Assembly: GCA_000471925.1 (NCBI GenBank)
Contig: CP006667.1
Span: 1,116,001 to 1,180,000 of the forward strand
Source of the DNA: Ralstonia pickettii DTP0602
Lineage (GTDB): Bacteria; Pseudomonadota; Gammaproteobacteria; Burkholderiales; Burkholderiaceae
Reading direction: 5' to 3'
DNA: 64,000 nt
The notes beneath the pieces were generated by a model. It saw nothing but the letters and a program-made list of their open reading frames with translations, made no database searches and had not been told where the DNA came from. The position numbers and the translations under genes are program-made. This document shows positions 1 through 10,038 of the stretch, piece after piece; position 1 is the stretch's first letter; each line of letters begins with the position of its first letter.

Positions 1-2154
1 ATCGCTAAAGTCCGGCCACAGCGGCGCGCCGCCGGCGGCGCCGGTGGCGGTCTCGTGCGGGGCGATCTGGTAGCGCACGTGTTCGATCGGCACCTCGACG
101 CGGAACTCGCCCGCCTTCTCGTGCGGAGCGTGGAACGGGAAGTGCGCCAGGTCGCCCTTGAGCACGAAGCGCACGTTGGCCGCCTCGCCGCCCGCCAGCG
201 CGCCGGCTAGGTAGTGCCGGGTGCCGGCCGGGATCGACAGCGGCAGGTAGCGCGGCACGCGCGCCACCTGGGCCCGGGTCATTTCGCCGCTCAGGTCGGC
301 GATGCCGGAGCCGTCGTCGCCGCCTTCGCGCCAAGTGCCGCGCACCGTGCCCGCCGCGTCGGCATTGGCAAAGCGGATGCCGTCCAGCGTCACCGCCAGC
401 TTGCCGCCGGTATGGGTCCAGCGCACGTCGCCGCCGATCTGGTCGAAGGGCAGGCGCGGCTCTTCAAAGAGGCCGGGCAGCGTCAGCGCCGCGCCACTGC
501 CTTCGAAACGGATACTGCCCTGCTGGTCGTCAAAGGCGAAGGTTCCGGACAGGTTCGAGAAGCCGGGCGTGCCCAGCCGCGGCCTGCCGTCGGCGCCCAG
601 CGCCGGCGCCGCCGGCTGGCCGTTGAGCGAGACGTTGCGCAGCGTGCCCTGCAACTTGTAGTGCGCCTTGCCGTCGCGGCGATCCAGCATGCCGGTGCGC
701 TCGCGGCTCCAGCTGACGTCGAGGTTGTCCAGGTGGCCGGCCGGCTGCAGCGCCCGCAGCCGGCGCAGCAGCGCCGTGTCCAGCGGCATCGAGGTGGCTA
801 GCGCGCGCACTGTGTTCAGGTCCAGCGTGGGCGCCTTGAGTGAGAACTTGCGCAGGCTGCCGTCGTTGTTGCTGGCCCAGCCCAGGGTGACCTTGCGCAT
901 GCCTTCGCGCCAGGTGCTGTCGCCGGCAGCGGCCTGCCCGTCGCCCTCGGCCGGCTGCCATAGCAGCGTGTCGACGGTCAGCAGGTTACTGCCGTCTCGC
1001 TCGGTGCGGTGCAGCAGGAAGGCCTGCGCGTTGGCCAGCCGCAGCGGCGCGGTGGCGCCGGCCAGCTGCAGGTCGACGCCGCTGGCGCGCAGCCGGGTCT
1101 GGCTGCGCACGATGCGGCCCTCGCGGAATTCGATGCTGCCGTCGGTGCTGAAGGTGCCGCTGGCGACGCGCTCGAACATCGCCAGGTAGCGCTGCAGCAC
1201 CGGCAGCTGCAGCTGGCCGAGGTCCCAGGTGGCCTGGCCGGTCCAGTAGCGCCAGTTGCCGGCGCTGTGCAGGTAGTCGTTGCGGAAGGTGGACTGCACC
1301 ACCAGCGGGCGCGGGCCCAGCGCCGGAGAGCGCGCTTCCAGCGTCACCGCATGGCGCGCGCCAACGCGGCGGGCGTCGAGGCGGATCTCGCCCACGTCGA
1401 GCTGCGGCAGCTTTGCCTTTTCGTCGAGCCAGCGCAGCTTGCCGCCCGACAGTGAGACCCGGCCCTGCGACGTCAGCCAGCCCAGGAAGCGGTCGTCGTC
1501 CTGCTGGCCGCCGGTCGCGTCCACCAGCATGCCGCCGACCAGCAGCCGGCCTTCGGGCGTGCGGCGTACCAGCACGTCGGTGCCGGTGGCGCTGAGCGTG
1601 ACGAACTGCAAGTTCATGCTGAACAGCGAGCGCCACGCCAGCTTGCCGTCGAGCGTGGCGGAGGCGAGCAGCACGCGGCGCTGGGCGTCCACGGCGCGCA
1701 AGTCCCCCGCGCGGAAGGCGGGATGCCAGCCGTCCCAGTAGGTATCGAGCGTGCCGATGCTGACCTGTGCCGACAGCGCCGCCGAGGCGCGCTCTTCCAG
1801 CCACTGGCGCGCGGTCGATGCCTGCGGCCACAGCACGAAGCGGACCAGCAGGCCCACCACCAGCGCCAGCACAGCCAGCACCAGCGCCAGGCGCACCAGC
1901 GCGCGGCCCAGCCCGCGCCAGCACGGATGGCGCACGGCGGCGGCCGTCGCGCGCAGGCCGGCCTGCACGCCCGCGCGGGCCAGTCCGCCGGCGCGCGCAA
2001 AGGCGGACGCCTTGCGCGGGGCGCCGGGGGCATCGATCTGAGGGGAAGCCGCAGGATGTGAGGAGGACGAGGCCAGCGTAGCGGCGGCCTCGTGCCCACC
2101 CGCGCCGCTATTGGGGGGAGAACCGTCAGCGGGTTGTGGGGCACGGCTGGACAT
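1..2154 (-). CDS. YhdP-family AsmA-like envelope protein (3' end outside window)
   Basis: An open frame of 718 codons runs from an ATG at 2154 off the left edge, so only the N-terminal part of the protein is present. After an Ala/Pro-rich cytoplasmic leader of about 75 residues there is one hydrophobic segment (nt ~1850-1920). Beyond it lies a long, beta-rich, repetitive periplasmic region with phrases such as LSATGTDV and RLLVGGMLVDATGG, typical of the YhdP/DUF3971-AsmA group. In enterobacteria YhdP is one of the bridge-like proteins that move phospholipid between inner and outer membranes. That role is inferred here from family only. It is divergent from glnE. The family is usually about 1,250-1,400 residues, so about half is missing. 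Confidence 0.72.
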   Translation of the reverse strand, partial: MSSRAPQPADGSPPNSGAGGHEAAATLASSSSHPAASPQIDAPGAPRKASAFARAGGLARAGVQAGLRATAAAVRHPCWRGLGRALVRLALVLAVLALVVGLLVRFVLWPQASTARQWLEERASAALSAQVSIGTLDTYWDGWHPAFRAGDLRAVDAQRRVLLASATLDGKLAWRSLFSMNLQFVTLSATGTDVLVRRTPEGRLLVGGMLVDATGGQQDDDRFLGWLTSQGRVSLSGGKLRWLDEKAKLPQLDVGEIRLDARRVGARHAVTLEARSPALGPRPLVVQSTFRNDYLHSAGNWRYWTGQATWDLGQLQLPVLQRYLAMFERVASGTFSTDGSIEFREGRIVRSQTRLRASGVDLQLAGATAPLRLANAQAFLLHRTERDGSNLLTVDTLLWQPAEGDGQAAAGDSTWREGMRKVTLGWASNNDGSLRKFSLKAPTLDLNTVRALATSMPLDTALLRRLRALQPAGHLDNLDVSWSRERTGMLDRRDGKAHYKLQGTLRNVSLNGQPAAPALGADGRPRLGTPGFSNLSGTFAFDDQQGSIRFEGSGAALTLPGLFEEPRLPFDQIGGDVRWTHTGGKLAVTLDGIRFANADAAGTVRGTWREGGDDGSGIADLSGEMTRAQVARVPRYLPLSIPAGTRHYLAGALAGGEAANVRFVLKGDLAHFPFHAPHEKAGEFRVEVPIEHVRYQIAPHETATGAAGGAPLWPDFSD

Positions 2155-2342
2155 GCGCAGATTATCCGACAATACTAGCCGCTCTCCAATCTGGTGCCCG
2201 GCCGGCTAAAACAAGAATGCGTAGGTCGCGCGGGCCAAGCCTGCGCACGTGGCGTGCAGCGTTCACTACGATGGCGCGCCTGATGCGCTTGCAGGATGAC
2301 ACCGGCGCTGGCCGCACCTTTTCTCGCATTTCAAATACTGGA

Positions 2343-5315
2343 ATGACTGCCTCTGACCCGACGAGTTCCGCCGCCGGCGGCGCCACCGACCAACATGGCG
2401 CGCTCGCCACACCGGCACCTGCGGGGCAGGGCCCCGGCACCATGGCCACCGGCGCCTTTGCCACCACGGCGGCGCAGGGGCCCGAGCCAGCCGACGGCGG
2501 CGGCCAGGTCGGCGGCCACGCATTGTACTCGGCTGCGTATTCGCATTACGCGCGCCGCATCGTCCAGGCCCGCGCGGACCTGCCCGCCATCCTCGCCGAT
2601 GCCGCCACGCAGCCGCTGACGCGCGCCTGGATGCAGGCGCGCCTGCAAGCGCTGCACGAGCCCTCGGCCGATGCCGAAGAGGCCGCCAAGCGGGCGCTGC
2701 GCCGCCTGCGCGCCGAGGTCATGTGCGTGGTGATCGAGCGCGATCTGCGCGGCCTGGCCACGCTGGGCGAAGTCACCGGCGCCATGACCGACCTGGCCGA
2801 GCTGGTGATCCAGCATGGCCTGACGATGCTGGGCGACGACCTGGCCGCCACCTTCGGCCGCCCGGTCGGCGCCCACAGCGGCGAGGTGCAGGAACTGGTG
2901 GTGGTCGGCATGGGCAAGCTCGGCGGGCGCGAGCTGAACGTATCGTCCGATATCGACCTGATCTTCCTCTATGACGAGGACGGCGAGACCCAGGGCGGTT
3001 CGCGCAGCCTGTCCAACCACGAGTACTTCATCAGGCTGGGACGCCGGCTGATCAACCTGCTCGCCGACGTGACCGGCGACGGCTATGTGTTCCGCGTCGA
3101 CATGCGCCTGCGCCCCAACGGTGACGCCGGCCCGCTGGCGTGCAGCCTGGGCATGCTGGAGGAATACCTGGTGGTGCAGGGCCGCGAGTGGGAACGCTAT
3201 GCCTGGATCAAGGGCCGCGTAGTGTCGGCACTGGACACGCCGCACGCGCAGCGCACCGCCAGCCTGCTGGCGCGGCTGACCATGCCGTTCGTGTTTCGCC
3301 GCTACCTGGACTACGGCGTGATCGCGGCGATCCGCTCGCTGCACGCGCAGATCCGCAGCGAAGCCGCCAAGCGCAGCGGCGGGCTGGCCGGGCACGGCGT
3401 CAACCAGCGCTCGTTCAATATCAAGCTGGGCCGCGGAGGCATCCGCGAGATCGAGTTCATGGCGCAGGTGTTCCAGCTGATCCGCGGCGGCCAGGACCCG
3501 GCGCTGCGCGTGCGGCCGACGCTGGAAGTGCTCGCGGTCGCGGTCGAGCGCGGCCTGCTGCCCGCCGGCCAGGCCGAGCAGCTCGGCGATGCCTACCGCT
3601 TCCTGCGCCAGCTCGAACACCGGCTGCAGTACCGCGACGACGCCCAGACCCACCATCTGCCGACGTCGCCCGACGAGCAGCTGGCGGTGGCGCGGATGAT
3701 GGGTTGCGCCGACTGGCAGGCACTGCTGGCGCGCCTGGCGGCGCTGCAGGAGCCGGTGGCGCAGCAGTTCGAGGCGACCTTCTCGGATCCCGATGCCGCC
3801 CCCTGCGAAGCGCTCTGGCCGGGCATCGTGTTCGACGATAACGCCGCACAAGCGCAGGACAATCCGGAACAGGAACAGGACGACGCAGCCTGCGACGATG
3901 TCGCGGCGCCCTGCAATCGCCTGCAGGTCGCCGGCTTCACCGACTGCACCGGACTGCTTGACCGCCTGCGCGCGATCGCGACGTCGCTGCGCTACCGCGC
4001 GCTGTCCGAGTCCAGCCGCGCGCGCTTCGACCAGCTGGTGAATCGCGCGCTCGACCTGGCCGCGCGCCAGGAAGACGCCGACAGCACCATCGCCCGCTTT
4101 ATCGACTTCCTGGAAGCGATCAGCCGCCGCGCCTCGTACCTGTCCCTGCTGTCCGAGTACCCGCAGGCGATGGACCGCGTCGCGCAGACGCTGCATGCCT
4201 CGCGCTGGGCCGCGGCCTACCTGACGCGTCATCCGCAGCTGCTCGACGAGCTGCTCGACAGCGACGCGCTCGCCGGCCCGCCGGACTGGGCCGCGTTCCG
4301 CAAGCGGCTGCACGAACGGCTGCTCGCCGCCGAGGGCCAGGTCGAGCACCAGATGGATATCCTGCGGCGCGAGCATCATGCCGAGACCTTCCGCGTGCTG
4401 CTGCAGGACCTGCAGGGCATGCTGACGGTGGAGCAGGTGGCCGACCGCCTGTCCGACCTGGCCGACGCCATGCTCGAGGCCACGCTGGAGACGGTCTGGC
4501 GCCAGCTCGCCACGCGCCACCGCGACACGCCGCGCTTTGCGGTGATCGCCTACGGCCGGCTGGGTGGCAAGGAACTGGGCTACGCCTCGGACCTCGACAT
4601 CATCTTCCTCTATGACGACGAGCACGAGCGCGCGCCCGATGTCTACGCCACCTACGCGCGCCGGCTGATCACCTGGCTGACCAGCCATACCGCGGCCGGC
4701 GCGCTGTTCGACGTCGACACGCGGCTGCGCCCCAACGGCGCCGCGGGCCTGCTGGTGACCAGCTTCGACGCCTTCCGCCGCTACCAGCTGCGCGAGGGCG
4801 ACAACACCGCATGGGTGTGGGAGCACCAGGCGCTCACGCGCGCGCGCTACTGCGCCGGCGACGCCGTCATCGGCGACCGCTTCGAGGCGCTGCGCGGCGA
4901 GGTGCTGTGCCAGCAGCGCGACGCCGCCGCGCTGCGCAACGAGATCGTGCAGATGCGCCGCAAGGTGGCCGAGGGCCATCCCAACCCGACCGGCCTGTTC
5001 GACCTGAAGCACGACCGCGGCGGCATGGTCGATATCGAGTTCACGGTGCAGTACCTGGTGCTGCTGCACAGCCGCGCCCATCCGCAGCTGACCCGCAACG
5101 CCGGCAATATCGCGCTGCTGCGCGAGGCCGGCGAACTGGGGCTGATCGATGCCACGCTGGCGCTGGCGGTGGGCGATGCCTACCGGCTGTTCCGCGCGCG
5201 CCAGCACCAGTTGCGGCTCGACGGTCAGGCGCACGCGCGCGTGGCGCCGGCCTCGGTGGCGCCGCAGACCGCGCAGGTGCGCGCGCTGTGGCGGGCCGTG
5301 TTCGGTGAGGACTGA
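2343..5315 (+). CDS. glnE: Bifunctional glutamine synthetase adenylyltransferase / adenylyl-removing enzyme
   Basis: GlnE attaches AMP to, and removes it from, glutamine synthetase in response to PII state, and so sets nitrogen assimilation. The two nucleotidyltransferase halves are visible. The N-terminal adenylyl-removing domain has GMGKLGGRELN followed by SSDIDLIF (about residues 190-210). The C-terminal adenylylating domain has AYGRLGGKELG followed by ASDLDIIF (about residues 737-757). Each half is also followed by an RPNG motif. I chose the ATG at 2343 (990 aa), because longer frames reach back into the divergent yhdP gene and add low-complexity sequence. The first 60 residues are still Ala/Gly-rich and poorly conserved, so the start is uncertain. 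The rhombosortase gene overlaps the last codons. Confidence 0.93.
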   Translation: MTASDPTSSAAGGATDQHGALATPAPAGQGPGTMATGAFATTAAQGPEPADGGGQVGGHALYSAAYSHYARRIVQARADLPAILADAATQPLTRAWMQARLQALHEPSADAEEAAKRALRRLRAEVMCVVIERDLRGLATLGEVTGAMTDLAELVIQHGLTMLGDDLAATFGRPVGAHSGEVQELVVVGMGKLGGRELNVSSDIDLIFLYDEDGETQGGSRSLSNHEYFIRLGRRLINLLADVTGDGYVFRVDMRLRPNGDAGPLACSLGMLEEYLVVQGREWERYAWIKGRVVSALDTPHAQRTASLLARLTMPFVFRRYLDYGVIAAIRSLHAQIRSEAAKRSGGLAGHGVNQRSFNIKLGRGGIREIEFMAQVFQLIRGGQDPALRVRPTLEVLAVAVERGLLPAGQAEQLGDAYRFLRQLEHRLQYRDDAQTHHLPTSPDEQLAVARMMGCADWQALLARLAALQEPVAQQFEATFSDPDAAPCEALWPGIVFDDNAAQAQDNPEQEQDDAACDDVAAPCNRLQVAGFTDCTGLLDRLRAIATSLRYRALSESSRARFDQLVNRALDLAARQEDADSTIARFIDFLEAISRRASYLSLLSEYPQAMDRVAQTLHASRWAAAYLTRHPQLLDELLDSDALAGPPDWAAFRKRLHERLLAAEGQVEHQMDILRREHHAETFRVLLQDLQGMLTVEQVADRLSDLADAMLEATLETVWRQLATRHRDTPRFAVIAYGRLGGKELGYASDLDIIFLYDDEHERAPDVYATYARRLITWLTSHTAAGALFDVDTRLRPNGAAGLLVTSFDAFRRYQLREGDNTAWVWEHQALTRARYCAGDAVIGDRFEALRGEVLCQQRDAAALRNEIVQMRRKVAEGHPNPTGLFDLKHDRGGMVDIEFTVQYLVLLHSRAHPQLTRNAGNIALLREAGELGLIDATLALAVGDAYRLFRARQHQLRLDGQAHARVAPASVAPQTAQVRALWRAVFGED

Positions 5316-5955
5316 GAGCGCGGCAGGCCGGCCCGCGCCCGCGCCCGCCGGCGCATCGTGGCCGGGTTTGCTGGCCGCGATCGCGCTGGTGTGGGCGCTG
5401 TCGGCCTGGTTCACCTTCGTGCCGTGGTGGCATGCGCACGGTCTTTACCTGCGCGACGCGGTGCGGATGGAGGGCCAGTGGTGGCGGCTGGCGAGCGCCA
5501 TGTGGGTGCACCTGGGCTGGCGCCATTGGCTGGCCGACGCGCTCGCGGCCACCGGCCTGCTGGCGCTCGCGGGTCGCGTCGCGCGGGCGCGCGCGATGCT
5601 GCTGGTGCTGATCGCCTGCGGCATCGCGGTGCAAGCCGTGCTGCTGCGCGTGCCGGCGATCGGCTGGTATGGCGGGCTGTCCGGTGCGCTGCACGGGCTG
5701 GCCGTGTGGGGCGCGCTGGCGCTGCTGCGCGCGCCGGGCTTCTCACGCGCGCTGGGCGTGCTGCTGTGCCTGGGCGTGCTGGTCAAGGTCTGGCTGGAAC
5801 AGTCGTGGCTGGCGCCGGTGGTGTTCGAGCCGGCGCTGGGTTTCGGCGTGGTGCGCGCCGCGCATGCGGCGGGCGCCGTGGCCGGGTTGCTGTGCTGGGT
5901 GTTGCAGGAGTGGTGGCTGGCGCGGCGGCCGGCGGCAGGCGCGGGCGACGCCTGA
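5305..5955 (+). CDS. rrtA: Rhombosortase (rhomboid-family intramembrane serine protease)
   Basis: This is a membrane protein of about 216 residues with several transmembrane helices and the rhombosortase signature. It shows EGQWWRL, an HLGWRHWLAD segment, the catalytic serine in GGLSGALHGL (S126) and the catalytic histidine in RAAHAAGAVAG (H187). Rhombosortases are rhomboid proteases proposed to cleave the GlyGly-CTERM tail of exported proteins. The adjacent convergent gene, ending 31 bp away, encodes a subtilase with exactly such a tail. The start is probably the GTG at 5305, overlapping the glnE stop. No strong ribosome-binding site decides it, and no downstream ATG precedes the conserved part comfortably. 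Confidence 0.85.
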   Translation: MRTESAAGRPAPAPAGASWPGLLAAIALVWALSAWFTFVPWWHAHGLYLRDAVRMEGQWWRLASAMWVHLGWRHWLADALAATGLLALAGRVARARAMLLVLIACGIAVQAVLLRVPAIGWYGGLSGALHGLAVWGALALLRAPGFSRALGVLLCLGVLVKVWLEQSWLAPVVFEPALGFGVVRAAHAAGAVAGLLCWVLQEWWLARRPAAGAGDA

Positions 5956-5986
5956 CCGGCAGCGCCCGCGCGCCACGCTTCAGAAT

Positions 5987-7630
5987 TCAGGCACGCCGCC
6001 GCAGCGTAAAGGCCAGCAGGCCGGATAACGTCAGCAGCAACGCACCCCAGACCGGCATCGCGCCGCCGCCGCCGCCGGATGAGGGCGCCGGCGCCACTGC
6101 GGCGGCCGGTGCCGCCCCCGCCGCCACCAGGGCCCCGTCGGCATCGAGCAGCCCCGCGCCGCACACACCGGGGTTGGTGGTGCAGAAGGTGCCGGACGGG
6201 TGCGGCCGCGCCGAAGCTTTCAGCGCCGTGGTCACCTGCGCCGGGGTCAGCGCCCCGTTCACCGCAAACATCATCGCCACCACGCCCGACACCATCGGCG
6301 CCGCAAAGCTGGTGCCCTGCGACGACGACACCGTGTACGCGCCCAGCGAGGTCTGCCCGAGGTTGCTCAGCGTGCGGATCACCGACGGCGTCACCGTGCA
6401 CTGCCCGTTCTGCACGCGCGAATTGCCGCAGCCGCCGCCGGGCGCACTGATGGCGACCTGCGCGCCGATGTTGGCATAGGTGGCGTTCTCGCCGTCGTTG
6501 GCATGCGCGGTAACGGCGATCACGCCGCTGCAATCGGCCGGCGCTTCCACCGCGCCGCGGTTGTTGCCCGCCGCGGCCACCACCACCACGCCGCGCGCGT
6601 TCAGGTCGTTGACGGCCTGCTGCTCGATGCTGCTGCAGGTGCCGCCACCCAGGCTGATATTGACCACGCGCGCGGGCGTCGGGTTGGCCGGCACGTCGGG
6701 CACCGGCAGGCCACCGGCCCAGCGTAAGGCGTCGACGGTATCGGACAGCAGCGCGCCGCAGCGCCCCGATACGCGCACCGGCAGAATGCGCGCATTCCAG
6801 TCGACGCCGGCGATGTCCTGGGCGTTGTTGGTGAGCGCCCCCAGCACGCCCGCCACGCGCGTGCCGTGCCAGCTGTTTGGCGTAGCCTCCTGTTCCGCCG
6901 TGGAGCTGCCGGGGCAGGTGAAGCCCACCGGCACGTTGTCGCCCGCATCGGTGGCGTCGCTGTCACGGCCGTTGTCGTCATTGGAGATGGTGGTGCTGCT
7001 GATGAAGTCATAGCCCGGCAGCAGCCGTCCCGCCAGGTCGGGGTGGGGCAGCACGCCGGTATCGACCACCGCGATCACCACGCCGCTGCTGCCGCGCGTG
7101 CGGTCCCAGGCGCGCGGCAGGTTGACGCCGCCGACCGCAGTGCCGGTGCCCATCAGATAGGGCTGGTTGACGCGGAACTCAGGGTCGTCGGGCAGGGTGT
7201 CGTGCAGCCGCAGCCAGCGGTCGGGCACGGCGTCGGCCACGCGTGGGTCCTGGCGCAGCCGCGCCGCGGCCGCTTCGGGGTCGGCGGCGAGTTCGGCCGG
7301 GACCTGCAGCAGCTGCAGGTTGCCGCCCATCGGGCGGCGCAGCGTGGCCGCGATGCCGGTGCGCTCGCGCAGTTGCTGCAGGTTGTCCTTGGGCTCGCCC
7401 GTCGCTGCCGAGGCCGGGTTCTTGCCGGCGGTGGCAGGGTCGGTGACGGAGGTGGAGCCATCGCGCCAGCGCACGATGATATGGCCGGTGTAGGCCTGGG
7501 CGCCCGGCGCGGCAAGCGCCCCGGTCGCCGGCACCGCGCCGCAAATCGCGGCTGCGGTGAGGAGGGTTACCCGCCAGCGGCGGGCCGGCGAGCATCGGCG
7601 GAAGACGGGCTGCGCGTTGGATTGCGGCAT
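5987..7630 (-). CDS. Secreted S8 (subtilisin-like) serine protease with GlyGly-CTERM tail
   Basis: The protein has 547 residues. A signal peptide (about 1-40, with RRCSPARRWR before a hydrophobic core) precedes a propeptide-like region (about 47-140) beginning GHIIVRW and ending with DPRVADAVPDRW. The catalytic domain has the subtilase triad D190 (AVVDTG), H255 (SWHGTRVAG) and S441 (GTSFAAPM), with the oxyanion Asn in AAAGNN (N356). The C-terminus is a textbook GlyGly-CTERM: a Ser/Pro linker, five glycines (519-523), a hydrophobic helix and terminal RRRA. Such tails are proposed substrates of rhombosortase, and one is encoded next door. A strong Shine-Dalgarno sequence (AGGAGG) lies a few bases before the ATG at 7630. 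A propeptide-like lipoprotein gene lies 131 bp upstream in the same direction. Confidence 0.93.
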   Translation of the reverse strand: MPQSNAQPVFRRCSPARRWRVTLLTAAAICGAVPATGALAAPGAQAYTGHIIVRWRDGSTSVTDPATAGKNPASAATGEPKDNLQQLRERTGIAATLRRPMGGNLQLLQVPAELAADPEAAAARLRQDPRVADAVPDRWLRLHDTLPDDPEFRVNQPYLMGTGTAVGGVNLPRAWDRTRGSSGVVIAVVDTGVLPHPDLAGRLLPGYDFISSTTISNDDNGRDSDATDAGDNVPVGFTCPGSSTAEQEATPNSWHGTRVAGVLGALTNNAQDIAGVDWNARILPVRVSGRCGALLSDTVDALRWAGGLPVPDVPANPTPARVVNISLGGGTCSSIEQQAVNDLNARGVVVVAAAGNNRGAVEAPADCSGVIAVTAHANDGENATYANIGAQVAISAPGGGCGNSRVQNGQCTVTPSVIRTLSNLGQTSLGAYTVSSSQGTSFAAPMVSGVVAMMFAVNGALTPAQVTTALKASARPHPSGTFCTTNPGVCGAGLLDADGALVAAGAAPAAAVAPAPSSGGGGGAMPVWGALLLTLSGLLAFTLRRRA

Positions 7631-7761
7631 GTGTTCCTCCTGGGGCGCCGGCCGGCGGGGACGGTGCGGGGCATGCTATGTAGCGAATACGATCCTGGCC
7701 GATAGCGCAAGGGCTACCGAGGGCTTAGAACTCGTCTCTTCCGGACAGCGCCGGAGCGCCG

Positions 7762-8214
7762 TCAGCTTTGCGGCATGTCCCAGCTGGTGGGCATATTCCG
7801 GTTGGGCTTGATCAGGCGGTCGGGCTCGGCGGTGTCGATGCGCGGCGTGGCGCGCAGGGTGTCGACGGCCTGGTCGATGGTCGCCTCCGCCGACGGCGAG
7901 ATTGCCGTCACCAGCCAGACACCGTCCGACATCGGGCGCTTGACCACGAAGCGGATCGGCCCCTTGATCTCGGCCAGCAGCTTGCCGGCATCTTCTGACA
8001 GATTCACCGCGGGCGGCTTGAAGCGGACCATGATGTCGCCGAGCGAGCGGTCGTCGCTGATGCTGCCCGGCGGCGGGGCGTAGGCCTTGGACTGGGCCTG
8101 GCAGCCGGACAGCGCCAGCAGTGCCGCCGAGGCGGCGGTGGCGATCGCCAGAACGGCGCGCAGGGATGCCCGGGGGCGATGCAGGAAGCCGGCTTGCGGC
8201 GCTTGGCGGGTCAT
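7762..8214 (-). CDS. Small lipoprotein resembling a free-standing subtilase propeptide
   Basis: The product is a 150-residue predicted lipoprotein. A basic N-terminus and hydrophobic core lead to the lipobox LSGC with C38 as the lipidation site. The mature part (about 55-140) contains IMVRFKP near its start and TPRIDTAEPDRLIKPN near its end. This layout parallels the propeptide region of the protease encoded just downstream (IIVRW... DPRVADAVPDRW). I infer that it could act in trans as a folding chaperone or inhibitor of that protease; no such function is demonstrated. The ATG at 8214 is preceded by AGGAG at good spacing, which is why I prefer it to longer frames. Confidence 0.72.
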   Translation of the reverse strand: MTRQAPQAGFLHRPRASLRAVLAIATAASAALLALSGCQAQSKAYAPPPGSISDDRSLGDIMVRFKPPAVNLSEDAGKLLAEIKGPIRFVVKRPMSDGVWLVTAISPSAEATIDQAVDTLRATPRIDTAEPDRLIKPNRNMPTSWDMPQS

Positions 8215-8283: not shown

Positions 8284-10038
8284 TCAGCCTGCGGCGCGGC
8301 GGCCGCGCCGGCCTTCCTTGGCGCCCGCGCTGCGCGCCGACTGGCTGGCTGGTGCCTCGGCCATGCCTTGCGCAAGCATTTCCTCGGCATGCTGCAGCGT
8401 GGTCGCGGTGACGGTGGCGCCGCCCAGCATGCGGGCAGTCTCGACCACGCGGCCGGCGGGATCGAGCACGCGGATGCGCGAGCGTGTGACCGAGCCGTCG
8501 CCTGCCCCGGTGGTTTCCTTGCTGACCAGCAGGTGCGTGCCGGCCTGCGCGGCGACTTGGGGCAAGTGGGTCACACACAGCACCTGGCGCGCGCGGCCCA
8601 GCTCCTGCAGGCGCCGGCCGACCACCTCCGCGACCGCGCCGCCGATGCCGGTGTCGACCTCGTCGAAGATCAGCGTGGGCGTGGGCGAGGCTTCGCTGGT
8701 GATCACCGAGATCGCCAGGCTGATCCGCGCCAGTTCGCCGCCGGAAGCCACCCGGGCCAGCGGCCGCGCGCTGACGCCGGCATGGCCGGCAACCAGGAAC
8801 TCGACCTGCTCGAGCCCGTAGCTCTGGCCTTCCTCGAGCGCGTTCAGCGCGGCCACAAAGCTGCCGCCGGCCATCGACAGTCCCTGCATGGCCTCGGTGA
8901 CCGCGGCCGACAGCGCCTGCGCCGCCTGCCGGCGGGCGTGGCTCAGGTGTTGCGCCAAGGTCAGGTAGGCGGCCTTGGCCGCGGCCTCGCGCGCCATCAC
9001 CTTGTTCAGGTCCTGGGCGGCCTGCAGGTCGTCGAGCTGCTGGCGGCGTGCGGTCAGTTCGTCGGGCAGTTGTTCCGGCGGCAGGCGGTACTTGCGCGCG
9101 GTGGCGTGCAAAGCCTGCATCCGCTCTTCCACCGCCTGCAGCCGCTCGGGGTCGAGTTCGAGCCGGTCGACATAGCGCGTCAGCGAGTGTGCGGCTTCCT
9201 CGGCCTGCATCTGGGCGGGTTCGAGCGCGGCCAGCACGTCGCGCAGCGCCGGGTCGAGATCGGCCAGCTGCTGCAGCCTGTGCACGATGGTGTTCAGCGC
9301 CGACAGCACCGAGCCGTCGGCCTCGGACAGCGCATCCAGCGCGGCGCGGCTGCCGTCGATCAGGCCGGCGGCGTGCGAGAGTCGGTTGTACTCGGACTGG
9401 ATCTCTTCCCATTCGCCCGGCTGCGGGTTGAGCTTGTCCAGCTCGCCCACCTGCCATTCCAGCCGCTCGCGCTCGAGCTGCATCTCGCGCGACTGGTGCT
9501 CGACCGCCTCGCGCTGGCGCACGCAGGCACGCCACGCGCGCCAGGCCTCGGCCACGGCGCCGGCCTGCTGGGTCAGCCCGGCATGGGCGTCGAACAGCAG
9601 GCGCTGGGCGTCGGGGCGCAGCAGCAGCTGGTGCGCGTGCTGGCCGTGGATGTCGACCAGCTGATCGCCGACTTCGCGCAGCTGCGCCAGCGTGGCGGCG
9701 GCGCCATTGATAAAGGCTTTGCTGCGGCCGCCGGCATCGACGGTGCGGCGCAGCAGCACGCTATGCACGCCGTCTTCCGCGTCGCCGTTGAGTTCGCGCT
9801 CGGCCAGCCAGGCGTCCAGCGCCGGGTGGGTCGAGAAGGTGGCGCTGACGCTGGCGCGCGGGGCGCCTTCGCGCACCACGCCGGCATCGGCGCGCTCGCC
9901 CAGCACCAGGGCCAGGGCATCGATCAGGATGGACTTGCCGGCGCCGGTTTCGCCGGTGAAGACGGTGAAGCCGGACGTGAAATCCAGGTCGAGCGTGTCG
10001 ACGATGACGAAATCGCGGATGGACAGGCTGCGCAGCAT
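8284..10038 (-). CDS. recN: DNA repair protein RecN
   Basis: RecN is an SMC-like ATPase that acts at double-strand breaks in recombinational repair. The 584-residue protein starts with MLRSLSIRDFVIVD and has Walker A GETGAGKS (residues 29-36). Long coiled-coil arms fill the middle. An ABC-type signature (ASGGELARISLA) and Walker B (LIFDEVDTGIGG) lie near the C-terminus. The length and order of motifs match the family. It lies 53 bp downstream of nadK in the same direction, a common nadK-recN arrangement. I could not see a convincing LexA box upstream. Confidence 0.96.
   Translation of the reverse strand: MLRSLSIRDFVIVDTLDLDFTSGFTVFTGETGAGKSILIDALALVLGERADAGVVREGAPRASVSATFSTHPALDAWLAERELNGDAEDGVHSVLLRRTVDAGGRSKAFINGAAATLAQLREVGDQLVDIHGQHAHQLLLRPDAQRLLFDAHAGLTQQAGAVAEAWRAWRACVRQREAVEHQSREMQLERERLEWQVGELDKLNPQPGEWEEIQSEYNRLSHAAGLIDGSRAALDALSEADGSVLSALNTIVHRLQQLADLDPALRDVLAALEPAQMQAEEAAHSLTRYVDRLELDPERLQAVEERMQALHATARKYRLPPEQLPDELTARRQQLDDLQAAQDLNKVMAREAAAKAAYLTLAQHLSHARRQAAQALSAAVTEAMQGLSMAGGSFVAALNALEEGQSYGLEQVEFLVAGHAGVSARPLARVASGGELARISLAISVITSEASPTPTLIFDEVDTGIGGAVAEVVGRRLQELGRARQVLCVTHLPQVAAQAGTHLLVSKETTGAGDGSVTRSRIRVLDPAGRVVETARMLGGATVTATTLQHAEEMLAQGMAEAPASQSARSAGAKEGRRGRRAAG

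Follow-up and report, generated by a model that had tools for sequence, protein, structure and literature searches.

A propeptide-like lipoprotein gene beside a rhombosortase and its GlyGly-tailed subtilase in Ralstonia pickettii DTP0602

Gene content of the locus and targets of the rhombosortase

The window analysed here is a stretch of 64,000 nucleotides from Ralstonia pickettii DTP0602 (GCA_000471925.1; 8.1 Mb in three contigs), positions 1,116,001 to 1,180,000 of contig CP006667.1. It carries a gene for a rhombosortase that converges, across a gap of 31 nt, with the gene of an MprA-type S8 subtilase ending in a GlyGly-CTERM tail; 131 nt upstream of the subtilase gene, and in the same direction, lies the gene of a lipoprotein (Table 1). 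The rhombosortase-subtilase pair is of a known kind, and the less expected part of the locus is the lipoprotein. The three genes, the homology of the lipoprotein to the propeptide of the subtilase, the co-occurrence of the components in related genomes and their conserved order are established at the level of sequence.

Table 1. Features of the locus (positions in the window).
Feature	Positions	Strand	Basis
Rhombosortase (rhomboid-family intramembrane serine protease), S126/H130/H187	5305..5955	+	TIGR03902, PF01694, motif positions
MprA-type S8 subtilase: signal peptide region, propeptide, catalytic domain, GlyGly-CTERM tail	5987..7630	-	PF00082, TIGR03867, D190/H255/S441
Subtilase's own (cis) propeptide, about residues 47-145	7196..7492	-	hhalign to lipoprotein; solved relatives
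GlyGly-CTERM / MprA_tail sorting signal: glycines 519-523, hydrophobic helix, RRRA	5993..6073	-	TIGR03867; invariance of G520-G523
Lipoprotein, free-standing homologue of a subtilase propeptide	7762..8214	-	Lipobox, hhalign, AlphaFold2 model
Folded core of the lipoprotein, about residues 56-139	7798..8049	-	AlphaFold2 model; VIA-align prosegment matches over about 58-139
glnE-like frame, directly upstream of the rhombosortase	2136..5315	+	Conserved border in assembled loci
recN-like frame, directly upstream of the lipoprotein	8284..10038	-	Conserved border in assembled loci

The rhombosortase (216 amino acids, GTG 5305 to stop 5955) scored 136.9 bits with TIGR03902 (cut-off 84) and 30.8 bits with the Pfam Rhomboid model (PF01694; 22.6). 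The rhombosortase subfamily has been described by the motifs SGxxH with the catalytic serine and the histidine typical of the subfamily, AHxxGxxxG and WRxxS/T (Haft and Varghese, 2011; PMC3237569), and the protein contains SGALH with S126, AHAAGAVAG with H187 and WRLAS from residue 60. Because the curated score exceeds its cut-off and the subfamily motifs are present, the protein was assigned to the rhombosortases, and it presumably trims the tail of the neighbouring subtilase. The subtilase (547 amino acids) matched Peptidase_S8 (PF00082) at 150 bits, with the catalytic residues D190, H255 and S441, the last within GTSFAAP (439-445). Its C-terminus comprises glycines 519-523 and RRRA from residue 544, and TIGR03867 (MprA_tail) matched residues 520-546 at 32.6 bits against a cut-off of 19.7. 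Moreover, G520-G523 were invariant across 19 aligned Cupriavidus-type proteases. Several relatives of solved structure aligned with the subtilase from residue 147 onward, and its own propeptide matched none of the Pfam prodomain models. The predicted subtilase structure was poor (mean predicted local distance difference test score, pLDDT, 54.3) and was not used. Together, the profiles and motif positions bore out the gene positions, S126, H187, the glycines 519-523 and the RRRA motif given in a preliminary description of the window.

That description had also presented the subtilase as a single GlyGly-tailed target, and the whole-genome search that it called for found no other convincing tail, within the sensitivity of such short models. 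One rhombosortase lay over the cut-off (the second match reached 14.8 bits), as did one MprA_tail, with five weaker matches below. The generic GlyGly-CTERM model TIGR03501, which had been proposed for the search, did not report the subtilase tail in the whole-genome search or in the protein scan up to an E-value (E) of 10, and TIGR03867 detects the tail instead; the sole genome match of TIGR03501 fell, by reading, on a helix inside a transglutaminase-like membrane frame that extends beyond it. A custom tail model built from 16 chosen sequences found the subtilase tail at E 9.8e-14. Its next match (E 0.056) ran antisense to another open reading frame, and six further, weaker matches (E 0.26 to 4.1) were inspected in part. 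With the TIGR03501 match internal and the best extra match antisense, the possibility that the rhombosortase serves many targets in this genome was rejected as far as the tail models can tell, and the rhombosortase and the GlyGly-tailed subtilase are the only such pair found in the 8.1 Mb.

Adjacent single-target pairs are already in print and are not new. Haft and Varghese (2011) listed them in Table 3 for Ralstonia eutropha (strains H16 and JMP134) and Cupriavidus taiwanensis, and such adjacent pairs were termed dedicated systems (PMC3237569). The present locus agrees with these pairs (see also TIGR03867) in having one rhombosortase and one target in adjacent genes; it differs in its third gene, which is unmentioned in the part of that paper used here, and in that a sister genus carries the target in one to three copies.

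A second precedent, VesB/RssP of Vibrio cholerae, likewise involves a propeptide-bearing serine protease with a GlyGly-CTERM that is cut by a rhombosortase, retained at the surface and dependent on type II secretion. In contrast to the present protease, VesB is trypsin-like and not a subtilase, and the portion of the paper drawn on mentions no propeptide lipoprotein (PMC6219818). The preliminary description had left it undecided whether tail cleavage releases or re-anchors the subtilase. The published case favours re-anchoring, which by analogy would be the better supported outcome for the DTP0602 protease as well, and the subtilase is probably surface-anchored. GspD lies over its cut-off in the DTP0602 genome (618.6 against 351.35 bits).

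The frames that border the locus are those that we take to be glnE and recN. The last 11 bases of the glnE-like frame (5305-5315) are shared with the rhombosortase frame, whose GTG start is itself a guess, and translation of the two may be coupled. A consensus scan found no promoters or terminators around the module genes; shuffled sequences averaged 0.1 promoters and 1.3 terminators, and the scan is uninformative.

Homology, fold and conservation of the lipoprotein

The lipoprotein (150 amino acids, ATG 8214 to 7762) has by motif reading a lipobox, LSGC, with Cys38, and NCBIfam and Pfam scans returned nothing usable for it. The alignments of Cupriavidus-type lipoproteins and of the corresponding cis propeptides matched each other in hhalign at E 9.7e-11 over 115 columns, against E 0.086 to 0.73 in 12 control comparisons (catalytic domain, rhombosortase, and reversed or shuffled propeptide columns). 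In addition, the lipoprotein genome search matched the N-terminus of the adjacent protease in five genomes (G004, G069, G131, G166 and G196). The subtilase prodomain model PF22148 matched 5 of 13 diverse lipoproteins weakly (best E 0.0012), and the DTP0602 member gave no match. An AlphaFold2 model of the lipoprotein showed the order strand-helix-strand-strand-helix-strand with a pLDDT of about 95 in the core. When this model was compared using VIA-align, subtilisin prosegments tied with other ferredoxin-like folds, and Foldseek found nothing at E ≤ 0.001. In a profile search against solved structures, BPN' prosegments stood among unrelated entries, with E-values no better than 0.48 and 1.3. 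Judged by the alignment comparison, the lipoprotein is a free-standing homologue of the subtilase's own propeptide, as its earlier designation as propeptide-like had suggested.

Three residues, the lipobox Cys38, Ala129 and Asp132, were invariant across the 13 diverse lipoproteins. By reading of the alignment, Asp132 aligns with Asp71 of the BPN' propeptide, a residue reported to cap enzyme helices (PMC6993865). In the sister genus (g24, presumably Ralstonia), all 16 lipoproteins end exactly 7 residues past the equivalent of Asp132, and the BPN' prosegment of 77 residues (1spb) ends 6 past Asp71. The g24 lipoprotein would end about where a cleaved propeptide presents its end to the active site; Cupriavidus-type lipoproteins extend about ten residues beyond this point. 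None of 39 lipoproteins has an Asp after the lipobox Cys. In E. coli, lipoproteins lacking this Asp are sorted to the outer membrane, and because the Asp is absent here the lipoprotein is predicted by the same rule to reside there.

The hhalign match places a propeptide within the subtilase itself, and the possibility that the lipoprotein substitutes for a missing propeptide was rejected. Because the subtilase still keeps its own propeptide, inhibition in trans fits the lipoprotein best, and from these sequence relationships we would give about even chances to its being a membrane-tethered trans inhibitor of the subtilase. Subtilase propeptides aid folding and then inhibit the enzyme, and eukaryotic stand-alone propeptide mimics (SUB1-ProM, TgMIC5 and others) are inhibitors or regulators of subtilases (PMC6993865). 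The dual function of propeptides also suits the main rival explanation, in which the lipoprotein is a membrane-tethered, trans-acting foldase or stabiliser that helps the subtilase to fold, mature or stay at the membrane. A non-polar deletion of prcB in Treponema denticola, after which prtP was transcribed and PrtP protein was undetected (PMC8167434), points the same way. So does the finding that a single lipoprotein gene stands beside one to three protease genes. A parallel for a foldase acting in trans is the lipase foldase Lif. However, a second foldase looks redundant beside a cis propeptide that is homologous over the same core, the g24 lipoprotein ends about where a cleaved propeptide does, and no such gene was found with 29 tail-less relatives of the protease (see below). 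We regard a foldase role as rather unlikely, although it deserves serious consideration.

The conservation of the lipoprotein bears on whether it belongs to the system at all. Among 171 pairs from 19 Cupriavidus-type loci, mean identity was 0.755 for the lipoprotein core, 0.612 for the cis propeptide core, 0.754 for the catalytic domain and 0.676 for the rhombosortase, and the lipoprotein core exceeded the cis propeptide core in 168 of the 171. The lipoprotein core, being more highly conserved than that of the cis propeptide, is thus under constraint. Were only the published pair functional, the lipoprotein would be an unlinked neighbour, the relic of a duplicated propeptide, and its position behind recN, in the same direction, would allow it to be linked to recN. 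A core as conserved as the catalytic domain argues against such a relic, as does the occurrence of a similar gene ahead of a tailed subtilase in three genomes from other families, of which two have a different sorting enzyme. We consider this explanation very improbable.

Co-occurrence and gene order in related genomes

Co-occurrence was assessed in 200 genomes of the same family. Of these, 40 had the lipoprotein, 34 the MprA tail and 68 an MprA-like protease, counted at E ≤ 1e-40; 38 had a rhombosortase over the cut-off, and three others had one that fell short of it. All 38 genomes with a rhombosortase over the cut-off contained the lipoprotein, and none was found in the three with a weaker match (G023, G106 and G155). 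The two further lipoprotein genomes were G122, in which the match falls inside a tail-less protease frame, and G166; as the contig of the latter ends within the protease, loss of its rhombosortase was not used as evidence. The protease genomes that belong to the three module genera number 39 of the 68 (22 in g1, Cupriavidus; 16 in g24; one in g4), and the lipoprotein was present in every one of them. The tail model was silent in five (G079, G098, G152, G166 and G004), of which four have a visible glycine-rich tail and G166 is cut off.

In the other 29 protease genomes, no rhombosortase over the cut-off and no separate lipoprotein were found. One protease locus was read in 28 of these and both in G122, and second protease matches of G011, G083, G162 and G169 were left out. 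None of the tail-less C-termini read, which come from non-module genera (L118-L145, L086 and L087 among the loci), had the tripartite arrangement of glycines, a helix and basic residues. The tail-less protease of L134 ends in a short glycine-containing stretch, and weak lipoprotein matches in L132, L134 and L143 fall within the protease frame.

The complete order, with glnE and the rhombosortase gene pointing towards the protease gene or genes, the lipoprotein gene and recN, was found in 35 of the 39 module genomes (18/22 in g1, 16/16 in g24, and G004); in the other four the contig ends inside the locus. Among 39 named loci found by lipoprotein alignment, whose species overlap those of g1, 34 had the full order, three were without rhombosortase and glnE matches, and two without a recN match. 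Of the g24 loci, 2 contain a single glycine-tailed protease, 10 contain two in tandem and 4 contain three, always with one rhombosortase and one lipoprotein, and a further glycine-tailed protease lies elsewhere in 3 of the 16 g24 genomes (G105, G113 and G151). A conservation survey, which the preliminary description had recommended, thus found the order kept in three genera. The dedicated module that it had envisaged stands as regards the rhombosortase-subtilase pair and, by order, co-occurrence and homology, as regards the lipoprotein; a strict one-to-one pairing does not hold in g24.

A glycine tail was present in 55 of 57 protease frames of the clusters, the others being cut before the tail (L057) or broken (L052). 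With a looser His pattern, all three catalytic motifs were found in 44 of the 57, and the 13 misses comprised eleven frames that lack just the His pattern and are second or third g24 copies (L063-L078), one broken frame and one contig end. In L052/L102 (G131), a single in-frame TGA interrupts the protease, and the lipoprotein and rhombosortase frames look intact; either an error or a recent loss would account for it. Separately, a second, divergent rhombosortase (L080-L085; G121, G113, G043, G096, G137 and G190) adjoins a frame of 820-906 amino acids with a glycine/serine-containing tail, and in the long frames scanned (L080 and L085) both a Lamin Tail Domain and an Exo_endo_phos domain were found. 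For C. metallidurans, the presence of two rhombosortases has been published (PMC3237569).

The search was extended to 399 genomes of the same order. A rhombosortase was matched at E ≤ 1e-20 in 24 (21 over the cut-off; three of the 24 from the module genus), and the lipoprotein profile matched nine, three of them from the module genus. The other six lipoprotein matches lay in protease-sized frames in four genomes (G225, G431, G513 and G575) and in small frames in two (G215 and G256). Loci were fetched for 18 of the 21 rhombosortase genomes outside the module genus (G202 and G513 being just below the cut-off) and for G215 and G225. An S8 protease with a glycine-rich tail adjoined the rhombosortase in 8 of the 18, the remaining ten being without such a protease nearby, and a lipoprotein gene accompanied one of these eight pairs (L202 of G256, taken as Derxia gummosa; profile E 1.5e-7).

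In G215 (L203, 3710-5769) and G225 (L219, 4508-6819), neither of which is among the 24 genomes with a rhombosortase match, a similar lipoprotein directly precedes a subtilase with a JDVT-CTERM-like tail (26.6 bits in G215, just below the cut-off of 27, and 30.0 bits in G225). The lipoprotein is clear in G215 (E 8.9e-11) and weak in G225 (E 0.0016 with the lipoprotein profile and 4.4e-5 with the propeptide profile; lipobox present). Furthermore, each genome has the cognate enzyme MrtJ over its cut-off of 75 bits: the G215 match (114 bits) lies 138 bases downstream of the protease, on the same strand, and the G225 match (107 bits) is on another contig. The published MrtJ/JDVT-CTERM system resembles the present one in placing one intramembrane sorting enzyme beside one tailed target; it differs in its enzyme, a CPBP glutamic protease instead of a rhomboid, and the part of the paper used here describes two genes and no third (PMC11980579). 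Since a similar lipoprotein accompanies subtilases with tails of two unrelated intramembrane enzymes, these two cases suggest that it is tied to the anchored protease and not to the rhombosortase. No claim on the order of events was drawn from a protease tree of 29 rows: its deep forks were open, three rows were fragments, the two rows with JDVT-like tails paired at 84/56 only, and the pattern used to cut out the domains failed on one GG row, on most of the tail-less rows and on each of the three additional g24 rows.

Possible role of the lipoprotein

From the composition of the locus and the published systems, we infer the following course of events. The subtilase would be exported with its own propeptide and its C-terminal GlyGly tail, the rhombosortase would cleave the tail in the inner membrane, and the new C-terminus would gain a lipid-type anchor. 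The type II system, as published for VesB, would then move the DTP0602 subtilase to the cell surface. The lipoprotein, a putative second and separately encoded propeptide fold with a lipid anchor of its own, would act as a tethered inhibitor, binding in trans to the catalytic domain. In this way the anchored subtilase could be silenced while in the periplasm, or its dose set at the cell surface, once its own propeptide is gone.

The same propeptide-binding face might instead serve localisation, the lipoprotein docking or retaining the processed subtilase at the outer membrane or presenting it to the secretion system. Within the family the lipoprotein goes with the tailed proteases and does not accompany the protease family at large, and its occurrence spans two unrelated tail-sorting systems; both observations are in keeping with such a role. 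However, VesB is held by its own modified C-terminus, and no partner of this kind is described in the portion of the paper drawn on (PMC6219818). Seven of the eight fetched rhombosortase/S8 pairs outside the family, moreover, are without a detectable lipoprotein, and we judge a localisation role improbable. Those seven pairs also weigh against inhibition in trans as a general explanation, as do the restriction of the co-occurrence mostly to two genera and the JDVT-type cases, which are two in number and one of them weak.

Inhibition by a tethered propeptide has partial counterparts elsewhere. The MEROPS I9 inhibitors SUB1-ProM, TgMIC5 and Pleurotus peptidase A inhibitor 1 have, as predicted for the lipoprotein, a propeptide fold encoded apart from the protease, and the SUB1-ProM gene, like the lipoprotein gene, adjoins subtilase genes; these examples differ in being eukaryotic, with neither a lipoprotein nor a link to tail sorting in the account used here (PMC6993865). 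The dentilisin operon prcB-prcA-prtP of Treponema denticola combines a surface subtilase with a lipoprotein partner in the same operon. It differs in that PrtP itself is acylated and PrcB is said to be without homologues outside oral Treponema (PMC8167434). No paper on a bacterial propeptide lipoprotein was among the literature matches listed, and mention elsewhere is possible.

Taken together, we tentatively propose, at somewhat less than even confidence, a protease-immunity module in which a subtilase due to receive a C-terminal lipid anchor is held in check, in trans, by a copy of its propeptide that is lipidated separately, and which is combined with a rhombosortase or with MrtJ according to lineage. 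A bacterium that fixes proteases at its surface has to protect its own envelope from them, and a lipid-tethered trans propeptide would, if the proposal is true, be a simple means. Some rhombosortase and MrtJ systems would also gain a third component, a small and testable protein that offers a handle on an anchored protease.

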